Source: Gammaproteobacteria bacterium HGW-Gammaproteobacteria-3
Lineage (GTDB): Bacteria; Pseudomonadota; Gammaproteobacteria; Methylococcales; Methylomonadaceae
DNA length: 64,000 nt
Assembly: GCA_002843155.1 (NCBI GenBank)
Contig: PGZD01000001.1
Coordinates: 62,001-126,000 of the forward strand
Direction: 5' to 3'
In this document: positions 16,321-58,668 of the stretch, in pieces
Layout of the letters: the number at the start of each line of letters is the position of its first letter
Position numbering within the stretch: position 1 is the first letter of the stretch
Translations under genes and position numbers: made by a program
The notes under the pieces: generated by a model
Told to the model about the DNA's origin: nothing
Databases searched by the model: none
The model's input: the letters and a program-made list of their open reading frames with translations, nothing else

Positions 16321-19026
16321 ATGATGCATACATGGCACAAGCTATCTGCAATCGAAACCGCAGGCCTGCTTGCGACCGATATGGAACAGGGACTTTCCAC
16401 CGAAGAGGCGAAAAAGCGACTTGCTCGATATGGGCAAAATAAACTGCATAAGGGCAAGCGATTTTCGGCTTTGTTGATTTTTATCAGCCAGTTTAAAAGT
16501 CTCGTTATTTGGGTGCTGATTGGCGCAGCGGCCGTTTCCGTTGCACTCGGTGAAGTCATCGACGGTATTGCCATCATCGCTATCGTGATCTTGAATGCGG
16601 TCATTGGCTTTCTCCAGGAGTATCGAGCCGAGAAAGCGGCAGCCGCACTCGCTCGTTTAACAGCGCCGCATTGCCGAGTGATTCGGGATGGCCATAGCCT
16701 GGTGGTCACCACATCTGAGGTCGTTCCTGGCGATCTACTGTTACTCGAAGCGGGCGATTTGGTTGCGGCGGATGCCCGCCTTATTCAAGCTTCCGTGTTT
16801 CGTGTCAATGAAGCCCCGCTCACGGGGGAATCGCAAGCCGTGGCTAAGTTTACCGTTAGTCTGGTATTGGACACACCGCTGGCTGAGCGGAGCAATATGG
16901 TTTTTCTCGGGACCAGTGTGACTGGTGGTTCCGCTCGCGCAGTGGTGGTCAACACCGGCATGGAAACCGAACTGGGTCGCATCGCGAAACTGCTCGAATC
17001 GGCCGAAAGCGGAGAAACCCCTTTACAACGCCAACTGGAGCGGGTTGGGCGCCTGTTATTGATAGCGTGTTTCGGCATTGTCGGCTTGATTTTCGGTCTG
17101 GGAGTATGGCGAGGCATCGCCCCCTTTGAGCTTTTCCTAAGTTCGGTGAGTCTTGCGGTCGCGGCGATTCCCGAAGGGCTGCCAGCGGTGGTAACGATTG
17201 CGCTGGCATTAGGCGTACAGCGAATGGTTCAACGGCATGCCTTGGTGCGACGCTTGGCTTCGGTCGAAACATTGGGCCGTGCGCAGGTGATTTGTACCGA
17301 CAAGACCGGCACGCTGACGATGGGTGAAATGACGGCCCGCAAGTTGGTGACCTCGCAAAACCTCTATCGTGTTACCGGTGAAGGTTACGCCACGGAAGGC
17401 ACATTTTTCTCTGGCAACATGGAAAGTTTCCCTTCGGAAAGCCCCGAATTATTCGCCTTGCTGCGAGCATCGGCGGCATGCAACGATGCCGAACTCACGC
17501 TAATCGATGGCCGATCTACTGTAGTAGGCGATCCTACCGAGGGGGCGTTATTGGTGGCCGCCGAGAAAGCGAATATTACGAGGTCTGCCATTGAAACGGA
17601 CATGCCGCGTTTGGCGGTGATCCCTTTTGATTCTGACCGCAAGCGCATGAGCGTTATCCGTCGTCAGACCAATTTCCCCTGGGCCTTTGTCAAAGGTGCT
17701 CCCGAAGTCGTTCTTAGCCGTTGCACGTTGATTCGCACCGACCAAGGTGTCAGGGCATTGACTGAAATCGACCGCACTCATTTTTTTCAGGCCAATCGCT
17801 TACTGGCCAACGATGCGTTGCGAGTGCTGGCCGTGGCAGAGCGTCCACTAGAAGGCATCCATTTCGGTGCGGGCGTATTCGGTAGTGATGTCGAGATCGA
17901 ACAGCAGCTTATTTTGCTAGGACTCGTTGGCTTACAGGACCCACCGCGTGGTGAAGCCAGAGAGGCCGTCAGCAAATGCAAACGGGCAGGGATCAAAACG
18001 GTGATGATCACTGGCGATCATCCGGATACCGCGCGGGCCATTGGCTGCGAATTAGGGATTATGGATAAGGGCGATGAAGTTCTGATTGGTGCCGAGATAG
18101 ACCACTTGGACGATGCTGAGTTAAAGGAACGCGTGCCGCATGTTTCGGTGTATGCACGGGTAACCGCCGAGCATAAACTGCGTATCGTTCGGGCATGGAA
18201 AGCGACTGGGGCGGTTGTCGCGATGACGGGAGACGGCGTGAACGATGCGCCGGCTATCAAAGAAGCATCCATCGGAATCGCCATGGGCATTACCGGTACT
18301 GAAGTGACCAAAGAAGCCGCCGACATGATTGTCGCCGATGATAATTTTGCTTCCATTGTCGCCGCCGTTGAAGAAGGACGCGGCATTTATGACAACATCG
18401 CCAAAACCTTGGCTTACCTGTTGGGCAGTAGCACCGGCGAGTTGTTGGTGATGTTGGGTGCGGTGCTGCTGGGTTGGCCATTACCGCTTTTACCGTTACA
18501 TCTTTTGTGGATCAACCTGGTCACCGATGGTTTTGCGGCCTTGGCCCTTTCCACCGATCCGATTGATCCAGGGGTATTGAATCGCCCGCCTCGACAGGCT
18601 CAGTCCCAGTTACTCAACCGGCATTTGTTTTATCTGACTTTATTCACCGGTTTGTTAGCCGCGAGCGTCACGCTCGGCGTGTTTGCCTATGAACTGCATG
18701 TGGTTGGCAATACGCTAGATCAAGCTCGCGATGCCGCCTTTACCGCTCTGGTGATTACCGGTTTGCTGCGTGCCTTCGGTGCGCGAAGCGAGCAACGTGT
18801 CATCTGGCAAATCGGCTTGTTTTCCAATCTGCGCTTGTTTCTGATTGTCGCCGTGTGTTTCAGCTTACAGTTGGCGATACACCATATTTCGATGCTGCAA
18901 ACCCTGTTTCAGATCAAATCGGTGTCGTTGCATCAGTGTGTCGTCTGGATCGGGGTTGGATTTATACCCTTGGCAATCTTAGAGTTCAGAAAAATCCTGC
19001 TTAATCGTGCTAAAAAGTTTGCTTAG
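16321..19026 (+). CDS. P2-type cation-transporting ATPase
   Basis: A 901-residue P-type ATPase of the calcium / Na-K-like P2 class. It has the cation ATPase N-domain (residues 1-60), actuator motif LTGESQAV, the M4 binding-site motif AAIPEGLPAVV, phosphorylation site CTDKTGTLT (Asp327), nucleotide-binding KGAPEVV, hinge MTGDGVNDAPAIKEA (from Met635), and M6 LWINLVTDGFAALALS. PEGL in M4 and NLVTD in M6 match Ca2+/Mn2+ exporters and rule out heavy-metal P1B pumps (no CPC). The tandem ATG at 16321 has GGGAGGTGG upstream. It is followed directly by the HD-domain gene. An N-terminal remnant of a close homologue sits at 1299-1472. Confidence 0.93.
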   Translation: MMHTWHKLSAIETAGLLATDMEQGLSTEEAKKRLARYGQNKLHKGKRFSALLIFISQFKSLVIWVLIGAAAVSVALGEVIDGIAIIAIVILNAVIGFLQEYRAEKAAAALARLTAPHCRVIRDGHSLVVTTSEVVPGDLLLLEAGDLVAADARLIQASVFRVNEAPLTGESQAVAKFTVSLVLDTPLAERSNMVFLGTSVTGGSARAVVVNTGMETELGRIAKLLESAESGETPLQRQLERVGRLLLIACFGIVGLIFGLGVWRGIAPFELFLSSVSLAVAAIPEGLPAVVTIALALGVQRMVQRHALVRRLASVETLGRAQVICTDKTGTLTMGEMTARKLVTSQNLYRVTGEGYATEGTFFSGNMESFPSESPELFALLRASAACNDAELTLIDGRSTVVGDPTEGALLVAAEKANITRSAIETDMPRLAVIPFDSDRKRMSVIRRQTNFPWAFVKGAPEVVLSRCTLIRTDQGVRALTEIDRTHFFQANRLLANDALRVLAVAERPLEGIHFGAGVFGSDVEIEQQLILLGLVGLQDPPRGEAREAVSKCKRAGIKTVMITGDHPDTARAIGCELGIMDKGDEVLIGAEIDHLDDAELKERVPHVSVYARVTAEHKLRIVRAWKATGAVVAMTGDGVNDAPAIKEASIGIAMGITGTEVTKEAADMIVADDNFASIVAAVEEGRGIYDNIAKTLAYLLGSSTGELLVMLGAVLLGWPLPLLPLHLLWINLVTDGFAALALSTDPIDPGVLNRPPRQAQSQLLNRHLFYLTLFTGLLAASVTLGVFAYELHVVGNTLDQARDAAFTALVITGLLRAFGARSEQRVIWQIGLFSNLRLFLIVAVCFSLQLAIHHISMLQTLFQIKSVSLHQCVVWIGVGFIPLAILEFRKILLNRAKKFA

Positions 19027-47688: not shown

Positions 47689-48501
47689 ATGTGTCGGTTT
47701 TTGCAAGTGTCGCCCAGCGCCTATTACGCCTGGCAGCATCGCCGCCCCTCGCCACGGCAGCGAGAAGATGAACAACTGAGTAACCTGGTGCAGCAAGCCT
47801 TCGAAAAAAGCCGACGCAGTTATGGCACCCGACGGATCAAAATTGCCCTGTCCCATCAAGGTCAATCCGTGGGGCGACGGCGAATTGGTCACTTAATGAG
47901 AGAAGCCGGATTAACGTGTAAAACCAAGCGCCGATTTAAAGTCACCACCGATTCCGAGCACGACCTGCTGATTGCACCTAATCATTTGATTCGTCAGTTC
48001 GCCGTTGATCGAGCAAACAGAGTCTATACGGGTGATATTACCTATATCCATACTCAGGAAGGCTGGTTGTATTTGGCGGTGGTGATCGACTTGTTTTCCC
48101 GCCAGATCGTGGATTGGTCAATGGCCGAACATATGAAAACCCAGTTGGTCAACGATGCGCGCTTGATGGCCATTTGGAAACGTAAGCCCGACAAAGGCTT
48201 GCTATGGCATACCGACCGGGGTAGCCAATATGCCTCAGAAAGCCATCGGGCTTTGCTGAAACAACACGGCATTCGACAAAGCATGAGCCGAAAAGGGAAT
48301 TGCTGGGATAACGCGGTTTCGGAGAGTTTCTTTCACACCCTAAAAACTGAACTGATTCACCAACAGACTTTCCAGACCCACGATCAGGCTAAACAAGCGG
48401 TGTTCGAATATATCGAAGTGTTTTACAACCGGGAGCGGTTACATTCCGCTAACGGCTACCTGTCACCGATTAATTACGAATTGCGGCATCAAGCCGCTTA
48501 A
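47689..48501 (+). CDS. IS3-family transposase OrfB
   Basis: 270 residues from ATG 47689, but normally made as an OrfAB fusion through the -1 frameshift; the frame is open upstream to it. It has the HTH_21-like region (RRSYGTRRIKIALSHQGQSV) and an rve integrase core with the first Asp in YTGDITYIHT, second in WHTDRGSQYAS, and Glu in NAVSESFFHTLKTELIH, so the DDE triad is complete. The element should be competent. Unrelated to the IS3 remnant at 15138. Confidence 0.92.
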   Translation: MCRFLQVSPSAYYAWQHRRPSPRQREDEQLSNLVQQAFEKSRRSYGTRRIKIALSHQGQSVGRRRIGHLMREAGLTCKTKRRFKVTTDSEHDLLIAPNHLIRQFAVDRANRVYTGDITYIHTQEGWLYLAVVIDLFSRQIVDWSMAEHMKTQLVNDARLMAIWKRKPDKGLLWHTDRGSQYASESHRALLKQHGIRQSMSRKGNCWDNAVSESFFHTLKTELIHQQTFQTHDQAKQAVFEYIEVFYNRERLHSANGYLSPINYELRHQAA

Positions 48502-49837: not shown

Positions 49838-50796
49838 AACGATCATTACCGTCATTTTTGTTACTGCTGACCGTTAGCACTGCCTTATCTGCGGATGAAT
49901 TACCCGTGACCGTTTTACCGCTGGTTACCACGGTAGCAGATCCTTTGCCGCCAGCAGGCGAGTCAGCTGGACAGCAAACGGATTTGGGCATCGAGCTTCC
50001 GCCGGTCGATGCCAGCGTATTGCAAACGGCCAAGCAACAGGCAGCAATTGCATCGACAACCTCCGTTGGTCCGCAACACATTCAAGTCAAACCCGGCATC
50101 AACGAACTGATGCCGATTGCCGTCGGCCATTTGAATCGCCTGGTCACCCCCTTCGAACATCCCGTAGTCACAACGACCAGCCAAGCGACCACTAGCACCA
50201 AAGGCAAAATCGTCTACGTCGCCACGGCCGACGAAACGCCGGTGACCTTATACATCACTCCTGGCGACAACCAGGACATCGCCTTGTCGCTGACCTTGAT
50301 CCCCAAACGTATTCCGGCACGGGAAATCCATCTCAGCCTGGATAAAGACAGTTACAAGCTGTTGAGCAAACTGCAATCGCCCAGTACCTCTTCAGGCAAA
50401 ACCAGCGATCAGGAACAAGCCTACATCGCCCAAATTAAAAAGCTATTCCGCGACCTGGGCCTGCAAAAGACACCGCCAGGCTTTTCCCTGCGCGATCCAA
50501 GCAAGGGCGAACATATTCAGTGCTTGCAAGACCTCGTTCAGATTAAAACTGGCCAGGTACTGGAAGGACACGACATGCTGATTCTGGTCGGTCTGGCGCG
50601 TAATACCGGCATGGAGCCCCTGGAGTTTGACGAGCGATCTTGTGCAACCACCAAAGACGAGGTGTTAGCTGTTGCCAGCTGGCCCAAAGTCGTACTGGGA
50701 CAGAACGAATCCACCGAGCTCTATGTTGCGGTCAGACATACACCGGAAACATCATCGACGCTCAGACCGTCATTGCTCAATGGGAGTCAACCCTGA
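49834..50796 (+). CDS. traK: TraK, F-type outer-membrane complex protein
   Basis: A 320-residue secreted protein (signal peptide to about ALSADELPV), VirB9-like. The N-terminal part is proline/threonine-rich and low-complexity, then IQVKPGINELMPIAVGHLNR and the conserved TraK strands (KIVYVATADETPVTLYITPG, LSLTLIPKRIPAREIHLSLD). It forms the outer core with TraV and TraB. Overlaps traE by four bases and traB by one. Confidence 0.87.
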   Translation: MKRSLPSFLLLLTVSTALSADELPVTVLPLVTTVADPLPPAGESAGQQTDLGIELPPVDASVLQTAKQQAAIASTTSVGPQHIQVKPGINELMPIAVGHLNRLVTPFEHPVVTTTSQATTSTKGKIVYVATADETPVTLYITPGDNQDIALSLTLIPKRIPAREIHLSLDKDSYKLLSKLQSPSTSSGKTSDQEQAYIAQIKKLFRDLGLQKTPPGFSLRDPSKGEHIQCLQDLVQIKTGQVLEGHDMLILVGLARNTGMEPLEFDERSCATTKDEVLAVASWPKVVLGQNESTELYVAVRHTPETSSTLRPSLLNGSQP

Positions 50797-52175
50797 TGGC
50801 CAGCATGGACAACTGGTGGTCACGTTTGAGTCCTACCGCCAAGCGCAATGTCGCGGTAGGCAGTATCGGCACCGTGCTATTGGCAACCATCATTGCTTTG
50901 GCCTCTGTTTCACCGGAAATCGCCAAGCCGACCAGTAAACAAGCGACGATTCAGCACATCCTGACCGACAGCGATCCTCGTTCACTAGGCATCGACGGCA
51001 TTTCCTCCCAGCTTCGCGATCTGCTGCAAAAGAACGAAGAGCAAGGGCGGCGGTTAGCTGCGATTGAAGAACAACAAAAGCGCGAGCAGCAATCCGATGA
51101 ACTGCGTTTCAAGCAATGGACTAGCGCCGAACGGGAAGCCTATGAAGCCAAACTCAAAGCCGTCAGCGGTGAAGTCGAGTCGTTGAAAAACAAATCCACA
51201 ACAACGATACCACCTACTGATGATGCTGATACCAACAACGCCGCAACTGGCAACAATACGCCGTCACCTAATTATGCTGGCCGCCGTTACAACTCGACTA
51301 GACCCAATACCGCTCAAGAAGATCTGAACAGCGTCTTTGAACAGGCTGCGATTCCGTCACCGACGACTGGCAATGCCGGTATCTCGGGCGGACGAACCGG
51401 TGCCAATGCACAAACGCCTGTAGCGATGCAGATTCGGGTCATCAAGGAAGAAAAAGCGTCCACACCTACAACGGATGCTAAAGCCGCTGGCGAAAACGGT
51501 TCGGCAAATGCCACAGCACGCAGTGATGTCTTTATCCCTGCCGGCAGCGTCCTGACTGGCGTTTTATTAAACGGCCTGGATGCACCGACCGGCAAAAAAG
51601 CCAAGAAAGAACCGATGCCGGTGCTGTTCCGCATCAAGAAGGAAGCCATTCTGCCCAACCGCTTCCACGCCGATGTCCGCGAATGTTTTCTGCTCGCCGC
51701 CGGCTTTGGCGACTTGAGTGCCGAACGCGCCTATTTTCGTGGCGAGACCTTTTCCTGCGTGCGCCAGGACGGTGGCGTGATCGAGGTACCCATGAACGCC
51801 TATGCGACCGGCGAAGACGGGAAGAACGGTGTGCGCGGTCGCGTCGTTTCCAAACAAGGCGCCCTACTCGCGCAATCAATGATGGCCGGATTTTTAAGAG
51901 GCTTTTCCGATGCCTTCGGCCGTAACCAGATTCCGGTGCTGATGACCGGAGGACTGGGCAGCCTGGCAGGAAGCACACCGTTCCAAAGTGCCTTTTCCTC
52001 GCAATCAATGGAAGGCGGTGCCTTGAAAGGCGCTGGTTACGCGATGGAACGACTGTCGCATTTTTACATGGACATGGCGGAAGAGATTTACCCGGTCATC
52101 GAAGTCGACGCCACCCGCCAAGTCAATTTCATCGTGCAGAAAGGCACGGCATTGAAACTCAAAACTCCAAGCTGA
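50796..52175 (+). CDS. traB: TraB, F-type transfer scaffold (VirB10-like)
   Basis: A 459-residue inner-to-outer membrane scaffold. TM helix (GSIGTVLLATIIALASVS, residues 23-40), coiled-coil region (QLRDLLQKNEEQGRRLAAIE, REQQSDELRF), Pro/Thr/Asn-rich linker, then the conserved VirB10-type C-domain (SDVFIPAGSVLTGVLLNGLD, VLFRIKKEAILPNRFHADVR, GGVIEVPMNAYATGEDGKNG). The ATG at 50796 shares its first base with the traK TGA stop. Longer upstream frames lie inside traK. Confidence 0.9.
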   Translation: MASMDNWWSRLSPTAKRNVAVGSIGTVLLATIIALASVSPEIAKPTSKQATIQHILTDSDPRSLGIDGISSQLRDLLQKNEEQGRRLAAIEEQQKREQQSDELRFKQWTSAEREAYEAKLKAVSGEVESLKNKSTTTIPPTDDADTNNAATGNNTPSPNYAGRRYNSTRPNTAQEDLNSVFEQAAIPSPTTGNAGISGGRTGANAQTPVAMQIRVIKEEKASTPTTDAKAAGENGSANATARSDVFIPAGSVLTGVLLNGLDAPTGKKAKKEPMPVLFRIKKEAILPNRFHADVRECFLLAAGFGDLSAERAYFRGETFSCVRQDGGVIEVPMNAYATGEDGKNGVRGRVVSKQGALLAQSMMAGFLRGFSDAFGRNQIPVLMTGGLGSLAGSTPFQSAFSSQSMEGGALKGAGYAMERLSHFYMDMAEEIYPVIEVDATRQVNFIVQKGTALKLKTPS

Positions 52176-52204
52176 TTATTCAACCCATGATCCGGAACAA
52201 TAAT

Positions 52205-53011
52205 ATGAATCTACGCCATACCAGCTTACTCCTATCATTGCTGATATTTGCTTCAGCCACCTTTGCCGACAATCCGCCAAAGGTAGCAGCCTCCGGCATT
52301 GCCGCCAGCTTACTGTCGATCAAAATCGACGGCATGCAGGATTTGCCAATCAGCGGATTGAAAATGGTCAAGACCGGCGCACAAACCGTGTTCATTTCCA
52401 GTAACGGTCGCTTTGCGCTTTACGGCGGCAAGCTGATGGATGTCTGGACCCAGCAGGAAATCAAGGATTTGCCTGACATCGACAAAATCGCCAATCGCAT
52501 CGATCTGTCGCGGATGAAGCTGAATGTCGACGATCTGGGCCCGGTCACGGTCGGACATGGCAAGGAATCGGTCTTGGTGTTCATCGATCCACGTTGTCCG
52601 TATTGCGGCAAAGTCATGAAAGATCTGCAAGCCCTTAAAGACAAATACACCTTCAAGCTGGTGATGGTGCCGATCCTGGGTGCCGAATCGCAAAACATCG
52701 TCGTGCAACTGGCGTGTCAGTTGGGTTCACCAGATGCCAAAGCCAAAGACGCGGTGCGCGAACGGCTGTTGAAACAGGATTACGCCGGGTTACCGACCGA
52801 GCAGCCCAAGCAATGCAACAAAGAGCCGTTACAGAAAGCCATCGTTACCGCCAAGCTATTTGGCTTGCAAGGGGTGCCATTCCTGATTGCTCCAGATGGT
52901 CGCACGCATAGTGGCGCACCCGATATCTTGGCCGATTGGTTGGCCAACAAACCAAATGCCGTATCGGCCGCAACCGCTCCTGAACCTACGAAAATGGAGA
53001 AAAAGCCATGA
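52205..53011 (+). CDS. dsbC: DsbC-like thiol-disulfide isomerase of the tra operon
   Basis: A 268-residue exported protein (signal ending near SATFADN). It has a DsbC N-terminal dimerisation region (SIKIDGMQDLPISGLKMVKT, SSNGRFALYGGKLMDVW) and a thioredoxin-fold catalytic domain with CPYC at residues 131-134, cis-Pro region LQGVPFLIAPDG. It assists disulfide formation in Cys-rich TraN/TraU/TraV. It sits between traB and traV, as in SXT-type elements which also carry dsbC among tra genes. Start 52205 is chosen on the signal peptide; ATG 52187 is an alternative. Confidence 0.88.
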   Translation: MNLRHTSLLLSLLIFASATFADNPPKVAASGIAASLLSIKIDGMQDLPISGLKMVKTGAQTVFISSNGRFALYGGKLMDVWTQQEIKDLPDIDKIANRIDLSRMKLNVDDLGPVTVGHGKESVLVFIDPRCPYCGKVMKDLQALKDKYTFKLVMVPILGAESQNIVVQLACQLGSPDAKAKDAVRERLLKQDYAGLPTEQPKQCNKEPLQKAIVTAKLFGLQGVPFLIAPDGRTHSGAPDILADWLANKPNAVSAATAPEPTKMEKKP

Positions 53012-53532
53012 CACGTTATCGCCAAATTTCATTATTCATCATCTCCAGTTTGATGTGGGTACTTGTCACTGGCTGCGCAACCCAGTACGGCTGTAAAGGT
53101 ATGCCGGATGAACCGCAGTGTTTATCGACCACACAGGCCTATCAAGTGACCAATCCCGGATTGCAAGAGGACGCCGGCCAGCAGGCTGGTCATTCGGAGT
53201 CACAAACCCCACCAGCGCCCAGCGTTCCCATGCAACAACCGGTGCCCAAAATCGAAGACCCCACGCCGATTCGTACCCCTTCGCAAGTCATGCGCATCTG
53301 GATCGCTCCTTGGGAAGATGCCGAAGGCGATCTGATGGTATCGAACTATGTCTACACCGAACTGGAACCAAGACGATGGATGATCGGCAAGTCGGCGCCG
53401 ACCTTGAGTCCATCGCTCATTCCTCTGCAAGTCGAGCAAAGGCCTCCTGAAAAACATCAGGCATTGGATAACGATGATTTGGAATCGCGTGGTTTGCCAT
53501 CCACGCTGAACAGCCCAGCCGCCAAAAACTAA
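53008..53532 (+). CDS. traV: TraV, outer-membrane lipoprotein of the T4SS
   Basis: A 174-residue lipoprotein: signal with lipobox VTGC (Cys23), then ATQYGCKGMPDEPQCLSTTQ, the Cys-bearing TraV N-terminal motif, a Pro-rich linker and a C-terminal segment RTPSQVMRIWIAPWEDAEGD, LMVSNYVYTELEPRRWMIG. It anchors the TraK/TraB core in the outer membrane, as VirB7 does. Its ATG overlaps the dsbC stop by four bases. A 123-base gap follows before traA. Confidence 0.88.
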   Translation: MTRYRQISLFIISSLMWVLVTGCATQYGCKGMPDEPQCLSTTQAYQVTNPGLQEDAGQQAGHSESQTPPAPSVPMQQPVPKIEDPTPIRTPSQVMRIWIAPWEDAEGDLMVSNYVYTELEPRRWMIGKSAPTLSPSLIPLQVEQRPPEKHQALDNDDLESRGLPSTLNSPAAKN

Positions 53533-53655
53533 ATTCTTCACCGCCGTGACCTTCGGGATCGGCGAGTCTTAGCGGGCGACCGCTGATGTTGAGCCGGAGC
53601 AAGCTTCCGAGATCGGACGGGCAACCGTCGTCATTCAACTATGAGGTCGTCTTGT

Positions 53656-53955
53656 ATGAAAGTATCCTATCGAACCGGGGTTCTAGTTGCCCTGGCTTCC
53701 TTGTTTTTTGTGTTGTTGGCGCCCGACGCCATGGCCGGTGCCGGCGGTACCGAGTTCAACAACGTCTGGACCTTGCTGACTGGCTGGGTCGAAGGTTTGC
53801 TGGGTCGGATTATCGCCATCGTCTTCGTGATTGTCGGTTTAGTCGCAGGGGTGGTACGCGGAAGCATCATGGGCTTCGTGCTGGGTATTGCCAGCGGCGT
53901 GGGTCTATTTGCGGCACCGACCATCATCACCAATATTGTCACCGCGACACTATAA
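53656..53955 (+). CDS. traA: TraA-like conjugative pilin precursor
   Basis: A 99-residue hydrophobic protein with a leader (VLVALASLFFVLLAPDAMAG) and two helices (LLGRIIAIVFVIVGLVAGVV, GFVLGIASGVGLFAAPTIIT), the F-pilin/VirB2 plan. Cleavage is expected near AMAGAGG (about residue 31). ATG 53656 has GAGG 9 bases upstream; ATG 53641 is possible. It lies between traV and the RRXRR-like gene. Identity rests on topology and synteny more than sequence. Confidence 0.8.
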   Translation: MKVSYRTGVLVALASLFFVLLAPDAMAGAGGTEFNNVWTLLTGWVEGLLGRIIAIVFVIVGLVAGVVRGSIMGFVLGIASGVGLFAAPTIITNIVTATL

Positions 53956-53962
53956 GGTTGTC

Positions 53963-54226
53963 ATGAGCAACATTACCGGACCACACCCCGTTACCGAGAT
54001 GACGGCGGGCAACCGCCGTAACCCAGAACACAAGACTGATCGCACGGTTCGCGTTCAGGCCGCCGATGGTAAACCAATCAATCCGTGCCATCCGGCGCGA
54101 GCGCGGGAACTGCTGCGCAAGAAACGCGCGGTCCGCGTCAGTCGGCATCCCTACACCATTAGATTGCTGCTACAAAACCAGGCCGAAACCATGCGTTTGT
54201 TATACGCCGAGGAGGAATCGGCATGA
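53963..54226 (+). CDS. Stand-alone RRXRR/PLMP-like domain protein in the tra operon
   Basis: An 87-residue protein. Residues about 28-70 contain VRVQAADGKPINPCHPARAR, then LLRKKRAVRVSRHPYTIRLL. This matches the RRXRR domain (the PLMP domain at the N-terminus of IscB-type nucleases, where GKPLMPCHPARAR is typical); PLMP reads PINP here. No HNH or RuvC domain follows. It is an intact operon member: ATG 53963 has AAGG upstream, it starts 7 bases after traA and overlaps traC by four bases (ATGA). Role unknown; RNA or DNA binding is a reasonable guess from the arginine-rich domain, but is not shown. Confidence 0.8.
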   Translation: MSNITGPHPVTEMTAGNRRNPEHKTDRTVRVQAADGKPINPCHPARARELLRKKRAVRVSRHPYTIRLLLQNQAETMRLLYAEEESA

Positions 54227-56637
54227 AACAGTCCAGAATCCATACCGCCGATACGCTTTTTTCAACCCTCGCTTATGACCACGACCACCATCTGTTTTTG
54301 CTGGCCGATTCCAGCATCGGTTTTGGCTTTATCTGCCGGCCATTGACCGGGGCCGATCCCAGTGTTTCGGCTAGGGTCAACGTTCTTCTCAATCAAGACT
54401 GGCCGACCGATACCTTATTGCAAGTCAGCCTTTGGACTTCACCGGATATTGAAGAATCGCTGGCGGTGATGCAAACCCGGCGCCTAAAGCAGCAAAAACA
54501 GACCTATAAAACGATGACCGGGGCCAGCATCGACTTCCTACGTCAAGGCACCACGAAACCTCCGGAATCCATTTCGGGCGCTCGGCTGCGACGCAGTCAT
54601 GTCATCGTCACGGTGAAATTACCCATCGCTAATCCCAGACCCAGTGAAGCGGAAATTCGCCGGGCAACGGAATTACAACTCGCCACTCAGCAATCTTTGT
54701 CGACCATCGGTCTTTATCCTGCTGTCCTGGACGCTGATCAATATGTGCGAGTGCTGAATACCATCCTCAACTGGCACTCGGATGCCGGCTGGAAAGATCG
54801 CGTAGTACCGGAATGCGATCCGACGCAACTGATCCGCGACCAATTGCTGGATTACGACAATGCCTTACAAACCGACGAAAAAGGTATTTGGCTGGGCAAC
54901 AAACGCGTAAAAACCCTATCGGCCAAACGTACCCCGGATCACTTTTACTTTGGTAGCGCCAAAAGTTATCTCGGTGACATTCTGTCCGGTACCCGCGGCA
55001 TTCGCCAGAATGCCCTGATCAGCCTGACCCTACATTACCCCGATGCCGAATCCACCCGATCAAAACAAGAAGGTGTTAGGCAATTCATCACCAATCAGGT
55101 CAACACGCCGATTGCCCGATTTTTACCGGTGTTGGTGCAACGCAAACACAATTTCGATGTGCTGTTCGAAGCCTATGGCGACGGCGACCGGCCGATTCGC
55201 AGTTATTTCGGCGTGCTGCTGTTCTGCGATGAATCTGATGAGACGGCAGCTGTCTCGAATGCTCGGGTGTATTTTCGGGAACTAGGATTTCAGCTGCTGG
55301 AAGACAAATATTTCTGCCTGCCGTTTTTCCTCAACTGTTTGCCGTTCGGTCCTGAGCGCACGGCGATTGCCGATTTGAAACGCTATCGCACCCTCGCCAC
55401 CCGCCATGCCATTCCCTTATTGCCCTTATTCGGCGATTGGGCTGGGACAGGCACTCCCACATTGAATTTCGTCTCCCGTAACGGCGAACACATGGCGGTG
55501 TCGCTGTTCGATACCACCGGTAACTACAACCTGTGTATCGCCGCCGAATCGGGTAAAGGCAAATCCTTCCTGACCAACGAAATCATCGTCAGCTATCTGA
55601 CCGAAGGCGCGCAAATCTGGGCGATCGACGTTGGCCGCTCGTATGAAAATCTGTGCGAGGTGCTGGAAGGCGATTTCGTCAAATTCACCCACGGTTCCGG
55701 GATCTGCATGAATCCGTTCGAGATCGTGCAGAACTTCGAGGAAGAAGCTGATATGTTAGCCGGATTGGTCAGTCAGATGGCGGCACCGACCGAGAAATTG
55801 ACCGATTTTCAAACTGCTGGCCTCAAGCGGATATTGAAACAACTCTGGACTGAGAAAGCCCAAACCATGTCGGTCGACGACATTGCCAAACAGTTGTGTG
55901 CCGAAATCGACCAGCGTTTGAAGGATGTCGGCGAACAGTTGTTTCCGTTCACCACCAAAGGCGAATACGGCCGCTACTTCAACGGCCGCAACAACGCCAA
56001 ATTCGCCAGCGACTTTACCGTGCTGGAACTGGAAGAACTGAAAGGCCGCAAGCATCTGCAACAAGTGGTTCTGTTGCAACTGATCTACCAAATCCAGCAG
56101 GAGATGTATCTCGGTGAACGCAATCGACCCAAGATCGTGATCATCGACGAAGCCTGGGATTTGCTCACCGAAGGCGATGTCGCCAAGTTCATGGAACATG
56201 GCTACCGGCGCTTTCGAAAGTATGGCGGCGCGGCAGTCACGATCACTCAATCGGTCAATGACTTATACCGTAATGCAGCCGGCCGAGCCATCGTCGAGAA
56301 CTCGGCCAATATGTATTTGCTCGGACAAAAAGCCGAAGTCATCGAAGGCATGAAACAGGATCGTCGTTTGCCGTTGTCGGACGGCGGCTATGAACTCCTG
56401 AAAACCGTGCATACCTTACCCGGTGCCTATTCCGAGATTTTCTTTATCACCGAGATGGGCTCCGGTATCGGCCGACTTATTGTCGATCCATTCAAACGCA
56501 TTCTTTTCTCGACCAAACCGGAAGATGTGCAGGCACTCAAGCAGCTGCGTAGACAAGGACTATCTCTCGGCGATGCCATTCAGCAACTGCTCGACAATCG
56601 TAAATCTAAACCTCGGGAGGTAAGCCATGGACGCTAA
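54223..56637 (+). CDS. traC: TraC, F-type T4SS ATPase (VirB4-like)
   Basis: An 804-residue cytoplasmic ATPase powering pilus assembly. Walker A AAESGKGKSFLTNE near residues 440-452, Walker B IVIIDEAWDLL near 636-646, and the FRKYGGAAVTITQSVNDLYR region conserved in TraC/VirB4. The N-terminal half has the TraC domain (LAYDHDHHLFLLADSSIGFG start). It starts overlapping the RRXRR-like gene stop and overlaps trbI by 11 bases. Confidence 0.95.
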   Translation: MKQSRIHTADTLFSTLAYDHDHHLFLLADSSIGFGFICRPLTGADPSVSARVNVLLNQDWPTDTLLQVSLWTSPDIEESLAVMQTRRLKQQKQTYKTMTGASIDFLRQGTTKPPESISGARLRRSHVIVTVKLPIANPRPSEAEIRRATELQLATQQSLSTIGLYPAVLDADQYVRVLNTILNWHSDAGWKDRVVPECDPTQLIRDQLLDYDNALQTDEKGIWLGNKRVKTLSAKRTPDHFYFGSAKSYLGDILSGTRGIRQNALISLTLHYPDAESTRSKQEGVRQFITNQVNTPIARFLPVLVQRKHNFDVLFEAYGDGDRPIRSYFGVLLFCDESDETAAVSNARVYFRELGFQLLEDKYFCLPFFLNCLPFGPERTAIADLKRYRTLATRHAIPLLPLFGDWAGTGTPTLNFVSRNGEHMAVSLFDTTGNYNLCIAAESGKGKSFLTNEIIVSYLTEGAQIWAIDVGRSYENLCEVLEGDFVKFTHGSGICMNPFEIVQNFEEEADMLAGLVSQMAAPTEKLTDFQTAGLKRILKQLWTEKAQTMSVDDIAKQLCAEIDQRLKDVGEQLFPFTTKGEYGRYFNGRNNAKFASDFTVLELEELKGRKHLQQVVLLQLIYQIQQEMYLGERNRPKIVIIDEAWDLLTEGDVAKFMEHGYRRFRKYGGAAVTITQSVNDLYRNAAGRAIVENSANMYLLGQKAEVIEGMKQDRRLPLSDGGYELLKTVHTLPGAYSEIFFITEMGSGIGRLIVDPFKRILFSTKPEDVQALKQLRRQGLSLGDAIQQLLDNRKSKPREVSHGR

Positions 56638-56944
56638 ATCGCAATGGCTGAGTGTTGTCTTGATCACGGCCAGTTTAGGCAGTGTGGGCGGTTGGTTGGC
56701 AGCTTATCAGCAATTACAGCAACCGATTGCTCGGTTGAATCTGGTCACACCAGTGTTCGTACTGGATCGGGCCAAATTGATTCAATCAATTCCGCCGAAT
56801 GCCACGCAAGAACAAATGGCCAAGATCGTCGATGACTGGCAAGCCCAAGCCAAGAAACTCAGTGATGCGGGTTACCTGGTGATCGATTCGACGGCCGTGG
56901 TTGCCGCACCGGACGATGTCTATGTCCGTCATGACGGTAAGTGA
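56627..56944 (+). CDS. trbI: TrbI-like F-type transfer protein
   Basis: A 105-residue protein with one N-terminal transmembrane helix (WLSVVLITASLGSVGGWLAA) and a small periplasmic domain (RLNLVTPVFVLDRAKLIQSI, MAKIVDDWQAQAKKLSDAGY). TrbI of F influences pilus length and retraction; the topology and the place before traF/traW fit. GGGAGG precedes ATG 56627. Similarity is weak, so identity is tentative. Confidence 0.65.
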   Translation: MDAKSQWLSVVLITASLGSVGGWLAAYQQLQQPIARLNLVTPVFVLDRAKLIQSIPPNATQEQMAKIVDDWQAQAKKLSDAGYLVIDSTAVVAAPDDVYVRHDGK

Positions 56945-56948
56945 TGTC

Positions 56949-57479
56949 ATGAGCAAGTACATCACCACCACAGACTCCTACAGTAAACCACCGTTGCGCA
57001 AATTCCTGCTCAAGGCCTTGCCGATATTGCTCTTCGTCTTGGCCGTCGAACGTTACGTTGGCCATCGCTTCCTGATTGGCGGCGATGATCAGGTTGATCG
57101 GTGTTTACCCGACAAATGGATTTATCTGATCGACACCTACAACAAAGATATTTGGCGCGGCGATTTGATGGCGTTTCGTGCCGAGCGCATGTCGCCGTAT
57201 TTCAAGGACGGTCAAATCATCGTCAAAATTGCCGCCGGTGTTACCGGCGATCATATTCAGGTCGACAGTCGGCAGACCACGGTCAACGGTTCCTTGATCA
57301 TCGAAGGTTTGCCGTTAGCGGAAAAACTCAAGAAACCCGCGTCCAGCTTCAAACGTGACGAAACCATCCCACCCGCAGCTTATTGGTTGACCGGCAAAAC
57401 GGATAAGAGCTTTGACTCGCGGTATTGGGGCTATGTCTATGACCACCAAGTGATTGGGCGGGCTTATGCGCTATTTTGA
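56949..57479 (+). CDS. traF: TraF/TrhF-like S26-type peptidase
   Basis: A 176-residue membrane protein: TM helix (FLLKALPILLFVLAVERYVG) then the S26 signal-peptidase-like domain (RGDLMAFRAERMSPYFKDGQ, IIVKIAAGVTGDHIQVDSRQ, ending SRYWGYVYDHQVIGRAYALF). The position of the catalytic Ser appears as Cys in VDRCLPDKWIY, while the Lys-bearing motif is kept. Likely a pilin or T4SS-protein processing factor as in TrhF. The start is taken at ATG 56949; ATG 56931 is an alternative. Overlaps traW. Confidence 0.78.
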   Translation: MSKYITTTDSYSKPPLRKFLLKALPILLFVLAVERYVGHRFLIGGDDQVDRCLPDKWIYLIDTYNKDIWRGDLMAFRAERMSPYFKDGQIIVKIAAGVTGDHIQVDSRQTTVNGSLIIEGLPLAEKLKKPASSFKRDETIPPAAYWLTGKTDKSFDSRYWGYVYDHQVIGRAYALF

Positions 57480-58668
57480 ATTACTGTCCAATCGCCTGCG
57501 TCAGGTCGTGCTCTTTTGCTTGGCAAATGCATTACTGGTGGCCTCGGTGAAAGCCGAAGAGGAATGGTTATCCCAATCGCAGCGGATTCTTAATGCCTTG
57601 GATGGACAAGCTAAGCCTGCTTGGCTGGAAGGCAATCCTTATCAGTCGGAAGCAAACCGGCAAGCCCTGGAGATGATGCGAAACTCGAATGCTATGCAAT
57701 CAATTTCAGCATCCTCAAACCGACTCGACAAAACGGTAACACCTCATCCAGGCAAACCGCTCAAAGTGGTGTTCGTTTCGTTTTCGCTCGGCGATACCGC
57801 ATTGAAAGGCATATTCGAAGAGGCATCGGGACAGGACGATGCGTTGTTGATGTTTCGAGGCCCCAAACCCGGTCAAAAACTACCTGCTCTGTTTGCCGAT
57901 CTGAAACGACTGCTAAAAGACATCGATCCCGTGCCCAACATCGTCATCGATCCGACTCGCTTTCAGAAATGGGCGGTGTCGTCGGTGCCGGCCATCGTCG
58001 TCGAAGCGGATGACAAGGCTTTACTACAAGTCAGAGGCGTCAGCAGTTTGACCTGGCTGAATGATAAATTCAAAGCCGGTGCTGCCGGTGATTTAGGCCG
58101 ATTGGGCGAAGTCTACGACATTGCCGAAATCGATCTGCTCGAAGAAATCAAACGACGGATGGCTGCGATCGACTGGCGGCAGAAGCAGCAACAGGCCATT
58201 GCTCGTTTCTGGGGACAACAAAAATTCGAAGTGTTGCCAGTCGCGTTGGAAGATCGTGAGCGAGTAATCGATATGACGATCACCGCTCCGCGCAATCTGA
58301 CGGCGCCGAACGGTCAACTCATTGTCCGGGCCGGACAAACTGTAAATCCATTGGACAAAATGCCGTTCGGCTTATGCCTGATTGTGTTTGACGCTACTGA
58401 AACCGCCCAAGTCCATTGGATTCGCCAGTTGTCATGCCAGGACAAAAAAGCCCGCGTGATGTATCTGGCCACGTCGGTGTCGCGTCAGGATGGCTGGGAC
58501 GGCTTGAAAGCATTGGAAACATCGCTGAATTCATCGGTGTACTTGTTGACGCCAGACGTACGTAGCCGATTTCAATTACAACACGTACCGAGTCTGGTCG
58601 AGCAGACAGGCAATCGGCTAGTGGTTCGCGAACGCAAACTGCCGGCTTCGGCGGGAGAACGGTCATGA
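57466..58668 (+). CDS. traW: TrbC-TraW fusion protein of the F-type T4SS
   Basis: A 400-residue secreted protein (signal to about ASVKAEE). The N-terminal half has the TrbC thioredoxin-like domain (VVFVSFSLGDTALKGIFEEA, IVIDPTRFQKWAVSSVPAIV), and the C-terminal half has TraW (FEVLPVALEDRERVIDMTIT, APNGQLIVRAGQTVNPLDKM, ending with LTPDVRSRFQLQHVPSLVEQ). In F these are separate proteins that work together in pilus assembly. The start at 57466 overlaps traF; the stop overlaps traU by four bases. Confidence 0.85.
   Translation: MRYFELLSNRLRQVVLFCLANALLVASVKAEEEWLSQSQRILNALDGQAKPAWLEGNPYQSEANRQALEMMRNSNAMQSISASSNRLDKTVTPHPGKPLKVVFVSFSLGDTALKGIFEEASGQDDALLMFRGPKPGQKLPALFADLKRLLKDIDPVPNIVIDPTRFQKWAVSSVPAIVVEADDKALLQVRGVSSLTWLNDKFKAGAAGDLGRLGEVYDIAEIDLLEEIKRRMAAIDWRQKQQQAIARFWGQQKFEVLPVALEDRERVIDMTITAPRNLTAPNGQLIVRAGQTVNPLDKMPFGLCLIVFDATETAQVHWIRQLSCQDKKARVMYLATSVSRQDGWDGLKALETSLNSSVYLLTPDVRSRFQLQHVPSLVEQTGNRLVVRERKLPASAGERS

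Follow-up and report, generated by a model that had tools for sequence, protein, structure and literature searches.

A stand-alone PLMP domain between traA and traC

We analysed 64,000 nucleotides (nt) of Gammaproteobacteria bacterium HGW-Gammaproteobacteria-3, family Methylomonadaceae (assembly GCA_002843155.1, contig PGZD01000001.1, positions 62,001 to 126,000 of the forward strand); this whole stretch is called the window and positions refer to it. The subject is P0001 (53963..54226, plus strand), an open reading frame (ORF) for a stand-alone PLMP-domain protein of 87 residues, with a PLMP core at about residues 28–69. It lies between traA (53656..53955, plus strand), coding for a pilin precursor (TraA_gammapb; NCBIfam NF041281, 104 bits, cut-off 50), and traC (54223..56637, plus strand), coding for the VirB4-like ATPase of an F-type system (TIGR02746, 665 bits, cut-off 567). 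Its start follows the traA stop (53955) by 7 bases, and its stop shares the four bases ATGA with the traC start (54223). The coordinates thus confirm the placement given in an earlier note on this DNA, which had been made from its letters alone. Two small hairpins, described below, occupy the traA/PLMP junction.

P0001 matched the Pfam RRXRR family (PF14239) with 40.4 bits (cut-off 25, E 3.7e-10), a significant profile match that bears out the earlier claim of a front domain of IscB type. Residues 30–76 aligned with positions 2–48 of the 174 in the model, which P0001 does not fill; the remainder past position 48, corresponding to RuvC-I and the bridge helix in IscB, is absent from the ORF. The NCBIfam IscB model was covered only at positions 3–48 of 314, with 40.3 bits for a cut-off of 175. 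Neither HNH (Pfam, over the 87-residue ORF) nor any family other than RRXRR (Pfam up to E 10, FinO/ProQ included) was found in P0001. The earlier statement that a nuclease domain is missing also held, as the ORF stops at 87 residues and the match ends at model position 48: the predicted product is the PLMP part alone, without nuclease. As a correction to the earlier note, the arginine-rich stretch is the helix belonging to the PLMP fold. Residues 1 to about 27 are outside the PLMP domain.

Five out of five divergent PLMP members tested also exceeded the RRXRR cut-off (29.6–41.8 bits). Net charge at pH 7 was +6.9 for P0001 and +5.8 to +8.7 for 4 members. Searched alone against PDB sequences with phmmer, P0001 reached IscB at E 0.14 only; with 22 sequences combined in a profile, IscB-like N-termini being two of these, the E value fell to 6.8e-10.

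Predicted fold

The AlphaFold2 model of P0001, for which 22 aligned sequences including two IscB-like N-termini served as input, had a mean predicted local distance difference test score (pLDDT) of 71.6, with about 89 over residues 31–70. It consists of strand-strand-helix-strand-strand (strands 29–32, 38–42, 56–60 and 65–68, helix 44–52) plus a C-terminal helix, and matches the fold of IsrB residues 1–59 (four strands, one helix). The nine top chains returned by Foldseek from the PDB were all IscB or IsrB, with IF3 next; the best E was 1.4e-3, none reaching 0.001, and the nine alignments showed 32–38% identity at a root-mean-square deviation (rmsd) of 0.7–1.5 over 41–45 columns. With VIA-align, the nine top IscB/IsrB chains scored Z 7.2 to 5.8 (rmsd 1.4–2.3), a further IscB chain Z 3.4 and the IF3 N-terminal domain Z 4.2 at rmsd 6.6 (range 5.0 to 7.0); the program warns that Z below 8 can reflect a common arrangement, and in the present case the Foldseek ranking concurs with the sequence profile. 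Structure prediction, proposed earlier as a check, thus gave a fold like that of the IscB N-terminal domain.

Distribution of the PLMP gene

Among 151 genomes of the source family, 21 carried a match at E <= 0.01, IscB-like N-termini among them. When the strongest 20 of the 32 places listed were considered (E < 1e-16, window included), all 19 others lay between traA and traC; their overlap with traC was ATGA in 17 and GTGA in 2, and PLMP length was 84–91 residues. A contig scan covered 29 loci, 23 with the order traA-PLMP-traC and 6 with IscB-like frames or fragments without tra matches. Seventeen of these 23 belong to Methylomonas or Methylovulum, 4 come from a Methylococcaceae bacterium, Methylocaldum and a metagenome-assembled genome named Methyloversatilis, and 2 from Chromatiaceae (Allochromatium, Thiorhodococcus). 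The laboratory methanotroph Methylomonas sp. LW13 has a 100% identical copy of the PLMP gene, together with further copies. The Chromatiaceae loci L067 and L068 have an extra PLMP N-terminus of about 50 residues, modelled for L068 as two helices with low to moderate confidence. In a Methylovulum copy, the traB match is split into two pieces about 1.2 kb apart (L037:5294-6509, identical to L055:3294-4509), which suggests that this traB carries an insertion.

A traC search in 301 genomes of the order gave matches in 53 genomes. Wherever traC had at least 64% identity, an intact N-terminus and upstream sequence, a PLMP ORF was found: 53 of 53 places in 33 genomes, many being near-copies. Places with truncated traC or unusable upstream sequence (G075, G599:360906, G145:C86, G600 and G572:C218) were left out. 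This survey of traA-traC intervals, another check proposed earlier, together with the 23 loci above and the tra neighbours identified with NCBIfam (see below), corroborates the integration of the gene in a conjugation operon. Loci L151 and L152, with traC at 56–57% identity, had no PLMP ORF. Among the places left out, the broken G599 copy, L144 (G599:C1, before 362882), holds a traC fragment beginning at residue 146, with PLMP absent from the 2 kb ahead, in a genome having two intact copies.

In 369 genomes of the class, traC matched at E <= 1e-80 in 22. At distant traC loci (26–48%), L172 excepted, and in the SXT/R391-like pR997, IncC, pQBR55, PA83, Azospirillum and Geoalkalibacter systems, no hit to the PLMP profile was obtained at E <= 0.1. 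The exception (L041/L172, G031:C57) is a minus-strand RRXRR/IscB-like frame located roughly 1.3 kb ahead of a distant traC (45%), apparently a separate IscB-type gene beside a PLMP-less tra operon. The traA-traC gap of pR997 (L098) contains an AbiEi/AbiEii toxin-antitoxin pair and dsbC, with a terminator-like hairpin after traA. The space between traA and traC may more generally accommodate accessory or regulatory cargo.

Related traC occurred in 3278 plasmid records, of which 60 were listed and 8 inspected. The Methylomonas plasmids pUP202 and pFW12EY carry a PLMP ORF in the traA-traC gap (L096:3299-3505 and L097:3305-3505, respectively), and the 6 other inspected plasmids do not. The PLSDB table, itself incomplete, shows no gene at these positions, and the PLMP gene of both plasmids may have been missed in annotation. 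Finally, a phylum-wide search matched 5 of 398 genomes, source genome included; the four other matches lie in a 510-residue open frame, in a 153-residue frame and, for two, in sequence with internal stops.

Tree and selection

The traC tree had 39 rows, a fortieth having been dropped because it had no sequence, and on it the PLMP label required at least 2 changes. L178 and L179, longer stretches of L151 and L152, were nested within the PLMP clade (support 97/96 and 100/99), and their absence of PLMP would most simply be a loss. Depending on where the Chromatiaceae pair belongs, the tree is compatible with one or two PLMP gains. The median ratio of nonsynonymous to synonymous rates (dN/dS) was 0.157 in core residues 28–69 (24 sequences, 147 of 276 pairs usable) and, outside the core, 0.63 in residues 1–27 and 0.70 in the tail. 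These ratios indicate that the PLMP core is under purifying selection. Synonymous differences were fewer in residues 1–27, with a mean proportion (pS) of 0.48 vs 0.65.

Hairpins at the traA/PLMP junction

Hairpin 2 (HP2; 54002..54019, plus strand) is a 7-bp ACGGCGG/CCGCCGT stem with a GCAA tetraloop of the GNRA type and corresponds to P0001 codons 14–19. Ahead of it, hairpin 1 (HP1; 53977..53996, plus strand) pairs CGG 53977–53979 with CCG 53994–53996 within ACCGG...CCGAG, that is 3 bp here and up to 7 bp in relatives. This tandem pattern was found once in the window (0 expected), with no further copies; elsewhere, a one-mismatch match to HP2 lies at 16767 on the minus strand. HP2 as an intrinsic terminator was discarded: the terminator scan calls none there and no T run follows the stem.

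Of 50 distinct PLMP-bearing intervals, distinct meaning not letter-identical, 46 had a GNRA-closed stem of at least 5 bp in the stretch from the traA stop to the PLMP core (7 bp in 28, 6 bp in 11, 5 bp in 6 and 9 bp in 1), in most cases with another hairpin ahead of it. As for the other four, L024 and L130 have a GNRA stem with one mismatch, and L146 and L170 a 4-bp stem. In these last two the PLMP C-terminal tail is longer, and L146 forms one strong 9-bp hairpin with a different loop (fold z −3.05).

Nineteen intervals were compared with 2000 dinucleotide shuffles each; 16 have the perfect stem, the others being L130, L146 and L170. A matching stem arose in 0–3.7% of shuffles for 14 of the 16. 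For nine Methylomonas-type intervals, it appeared in 0–7 shuffles in seven, 58 for L035 and 74 for L037; the counts were 24 and 29 for L059/L061, 10 for L150 and 41 and 49 for L067/L068. L020/L096 gave 169 and 187 (8.5–9.4%). As background, 71 of 1833 windows of 130 nt from tra loci contained a stem of at least 5 bp, and 34 one of at least 6 bp.

Across 18 distinct rows, 88.1% of HP2 cells are paired. Both sides have changed in 4 of the 7 pairs, a result seen in 5 of 500 shuffles, and the covariation score is 0.226 vs 0.137 in shuffles (0 of 500), with the caveat that kinship alone can beat shuffles and that rows were picked by the GNRA criterion. We therefore give more weight to compensatory replacements (GC to AU, CG to GC) and to G-U pairs than to the loop. 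Concerning HP1, 30 rows contain the ACCGG...CCGAG arm. Taken one by one, the three CGG/CCG pairs are C-G or G-C in 29 rows each; at the fourth position, 12 rows have T-A, 7 have A-T, 2 have C-G and 9 are unpaired. HP1 is clear, with 5–7 bp, in L130, L061, L059, L067 and L068. The arm is missing from L020/L096/L097, and L020 folds with a different hairpin ahead of HP2. Energy folding recovered HP2 and a preceding hairpin in 6 of 7 sequences (with the mismatch in L130), the seventh, L146, giving its single other-loop hairpin.

In Methylomonas, the hairpin element is translated as TG...TE..AGNRR. We set this aside as a protein motif: in L060-L062 similar hairpin DNA lies in a reading frame other than that of PLMP, and in L020/L096/L097 the hairpin is upstream of the PLMP start codon. 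Because the same DNA is read in another frame in L060-L062, constraint on the nucleic acid would be the better reading of the N-terminal stretch. Fourfold sites differed in 0.27 of pairs over codons 13–19 vs 0.53 from codon 28 on (6 vs 32 codons, p 0.004).

Co-occurrence of hairpin and protein

We then considered elements lacking PLMP. No GNRA stem of at least 6 bp was found in the 260 nt after traA in 22 PLMP-less elements, and a 5-bp stem in 1 only (L102); the set was drawn from 26 loci, 4 of which gave no traA hit, and for 1 of the 22 (L171) the hit was at chance level only. L151/L152 contain neither the ORF nor the hairpin: traA reaches up to traC, and the GNRA stem at the junction is at most 1 bp. 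The PLMP protein and the GNRA hairpin are, by these comparisons, co-conserved. Since the tra operons of L151/L152 exist without both, a regulator would fit better than a structural part.

The surrounding tra operon

P0001 neighbours are F-type tra genes of the pilus-assembly block. Among ten neighbours scanned with NCBIfam, TraL, TraA and TraC scored above cut-offs, and TraE, TraV, TraB, TraW/TrbC, TraU and DsbC matched with scores short of theirs; for the protein in the traK position, NCBIfam gave no match at E <= 1e-5. At the edge of the operon, just upstream of traL, a frame at 47689-48501 of the window resembles, as judged by eye, an IS3-type transposase.

Comparison with known systems

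P0001 shares with the PLMP of IscB/IsrB its sequence, fold, basic helix and the two prolines of the PLMP motif (PINP in P0001), and in both the hairpins adjoin the start of the protein itself. Unlike IscB/IsrB, it has no RuvC, bridge helix, HNH or WED/TI, and it lies outside a transposon, in a type IV secretion operon, without an omega RNA match. HEARO/omega RNA (Rfam RF02033) was not found up to E 10 in window positions 50000-58000, in the source-genome locus L002 or in six related loci; as positive control, the same search at IscB loci detected it in 5 of 5 tried, four above the cut-off. The tra element resembles HEARO in being a structured RNA beside a PLMP-encoding frame, but comprises only one or two small hairpins.

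Likeness to the IF3 N-terminal domain is restricted to the fold, and is loose (Z about 4.2): the sequence match is absent, and P0001 has no C-terminal domain and is not a housekeeping protein. FinO and ProQ are RNA-binding regulators of F-like transfer. P0001 would resemble them in supposed function only, as a small RNA-binding regulator of tra expression; its domain is unrelated, with no FinO/ProQ match in Pfam. IshB is PLMP plus HNH, the latter being absent from the 87 residues of P0001. On these comparisons P0001 is not an IscB, whose defining parts are absent, nor an OMEGA system, for which no Rfam omega RNA match was obtained; it is likewise not a FinO/ProQ protein, nor is it among the known defence proteins of the library searched.

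A putative RNA-binding regulator of the tra operon

The reading to which we give slightly better than even chances is that the free PLMP domain, as a small and basic RNA-binding protein, regulates the tra operon in which it is encoded, acting via the tandem hairpin. P0001 would bind this hairpin in its own tra mRNA, as the PLMP of IscB/IsrB does with the terminal hairpins of omega RNA, and so adjust expression across the traA-traC junction, without guide, DNA target or nuclease. The likeliest target would be translation of its own ORF and the overlapping traC, the rationale being that pilin is needed in excess and the ATPase in few copies; the effect could be to repress traC or to protect the traA message upstream. 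The comparison rests on electron cryo-microscopy: in IsrB, PLMP is reported to bind the tandem terminal hairpins SL7 and SL8 at the 3′ end of omega RNA, one of them with a Shine-Dalgarno sequence (PMC9581776), and in IscB likewise to bind terminal hairpins (PMC9640706). By analogy, the tra element would repeat on a small scale the omega RNA layout, with hairpins by the PLMP start, PLMP and an overlapping downstream gene. The suggestion of the earlier note that the protein could bind an RNA thus finds support in the co-conserved hairpin beside the gene, from which such binding may be inferred.

Several observations speak against this regulator. The clade of L146/L170 has PLMP yet only a 4-bp GNRA stem and a different strong hairpin. 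The GNRA loop was itself the search criterion, which partly builds in its invariance, and the 50 intervals are mostly close relatives. The best slid register of HP2 also scores fairly high, 0.178 on 4 pairs. HP1 has only 3 bp in the window, where the minimum-energy fold pairs CGG with CCG 53988-53990 instead, and the junction folding energy stands out in 4 of 7 sequences only (z −1.95 to −3.05; the rest −0.65 to −0.92). In Methylomonas the hairpin is also coding, and only 6 codons underlie the fourfold-site comparison. Relative to the start codon, the hairpins are downstream in Methylomonas and upstream in other clades, so that no single simple occlusion model suits every case. Moreover, SL8, one of the two hairpins, is described as dispensable for IsrB nicking (PMC9581776), and contacts of IscB PLMP with its hairpin as mainly sequence-independent (PMC9640706).

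PLMP might instead work by contacting other proteins, serving TraC or the secretion complex as an assembly or chaperone factor; in that case the hairpin would be an independent mRNA element setting the traA:traC ratio. Constant adjacency to traC with the four-base overlap would suit this, as would the packing of IsrB PLMP on RuvC and TI domains (PMC9581776). However, PLMP-less relatives should then carry such a plain mRNA element as well, and stems of at least 6 bp occur in 0 of 22 of them; L151/L152 have neither hairpin nor protein though traA and traC remain; we regard protein contact as unlikely. A role like that of the IF3 N-terminal domain seems quite improbable; PLMP would then contact the ribosome or the initiation complex and modulate operon translation with no specific hairpin involved. 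Among fold groups the IF3 N-terminal domain ranks second (Z 4.2, rmsd 6.6), and a likeness of PLMP to it is published (PMC9581776); still, IF3 is unmatched in Pfam and NCBIfam, the alignment is loose (rmsd 5.0 to 7.0 vs 1.4–2.3 for the nine top IscB/IsrB chains) and the co-conserved hairpin is left unexplained.

The earlier note had also imagined an accessory or anti-defence factor, or a protein binding the transferring DNA. The gene sits in a transfer operon, and PLMP stems from RNA-guided nucleases and could conceivably compete for guide RNA; a role in anti-defence or establishment that shields the element during transfer, or in binding the transferred DNA strand, nonetheless appears very improbable. 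The location is the pilus-assembly block, the PADLOC defence library has no match to P0001, two pattern-based scans of viral contigs returned no PLMP relatives, and the draft source genome contains a single RRXRR match, hence no second one as partner nuclease or to interfere with; the conserved cis hairpin would again go unexplained. Hits in PHROGs were confined to an HNH endonuclease family, at E 0.0005 to 0.26, and a single family of unknown function with E above 0.1. With no PADLOC, viral-contig, omega RNA or second RRXRR match, the anti-defence role is unsupported, and nothing was found in favour of binding to transferring DNA. Least credible of all is a decayed IscB N-terminus left by a transposon. 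The domain is the same as the first 48 positions of IscB and relatives contain IscB-like frames and fragments, but neighbours are the same in 53 of 53 loci, core dN/dS is 0.157, length stays at 84–91 residues in 19 loci and HEARO RNA is unmatched. Synteny and selection rule out P0001 as an IscB remnant, which is refuted as a full account and possible as a distant origin.

Returning to the RNA-binding regulator, a wider version strikes us as rather unlikely: PLMP and its tandem-hairpin mRNA site would form a two-part riboregulator of pilus genes, a nuclease-free, guide-less relative of the OMEGA/Cas9 core, domesticated from IscB/IsrB or kept from their founding RNA-binding module. No account of a PLMP protein in tra operons was found in the literature searched, which included few subscription papers and no preprint servers. 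IscB is the ancestor of Cas9, and PLMP, the part with which IscB/IsrB grips the terminal hairpins of omega RNA, is missing from Cas9. The candidate RNA site and the small size of the protein allow a direct binding test. If the proposed regulator is real, the RNA-binding role of PLMP would be separated from targeting, the suggested regulation of IsrB expression would become testable in a simple system, and conjugation would gain a new class of regulator.
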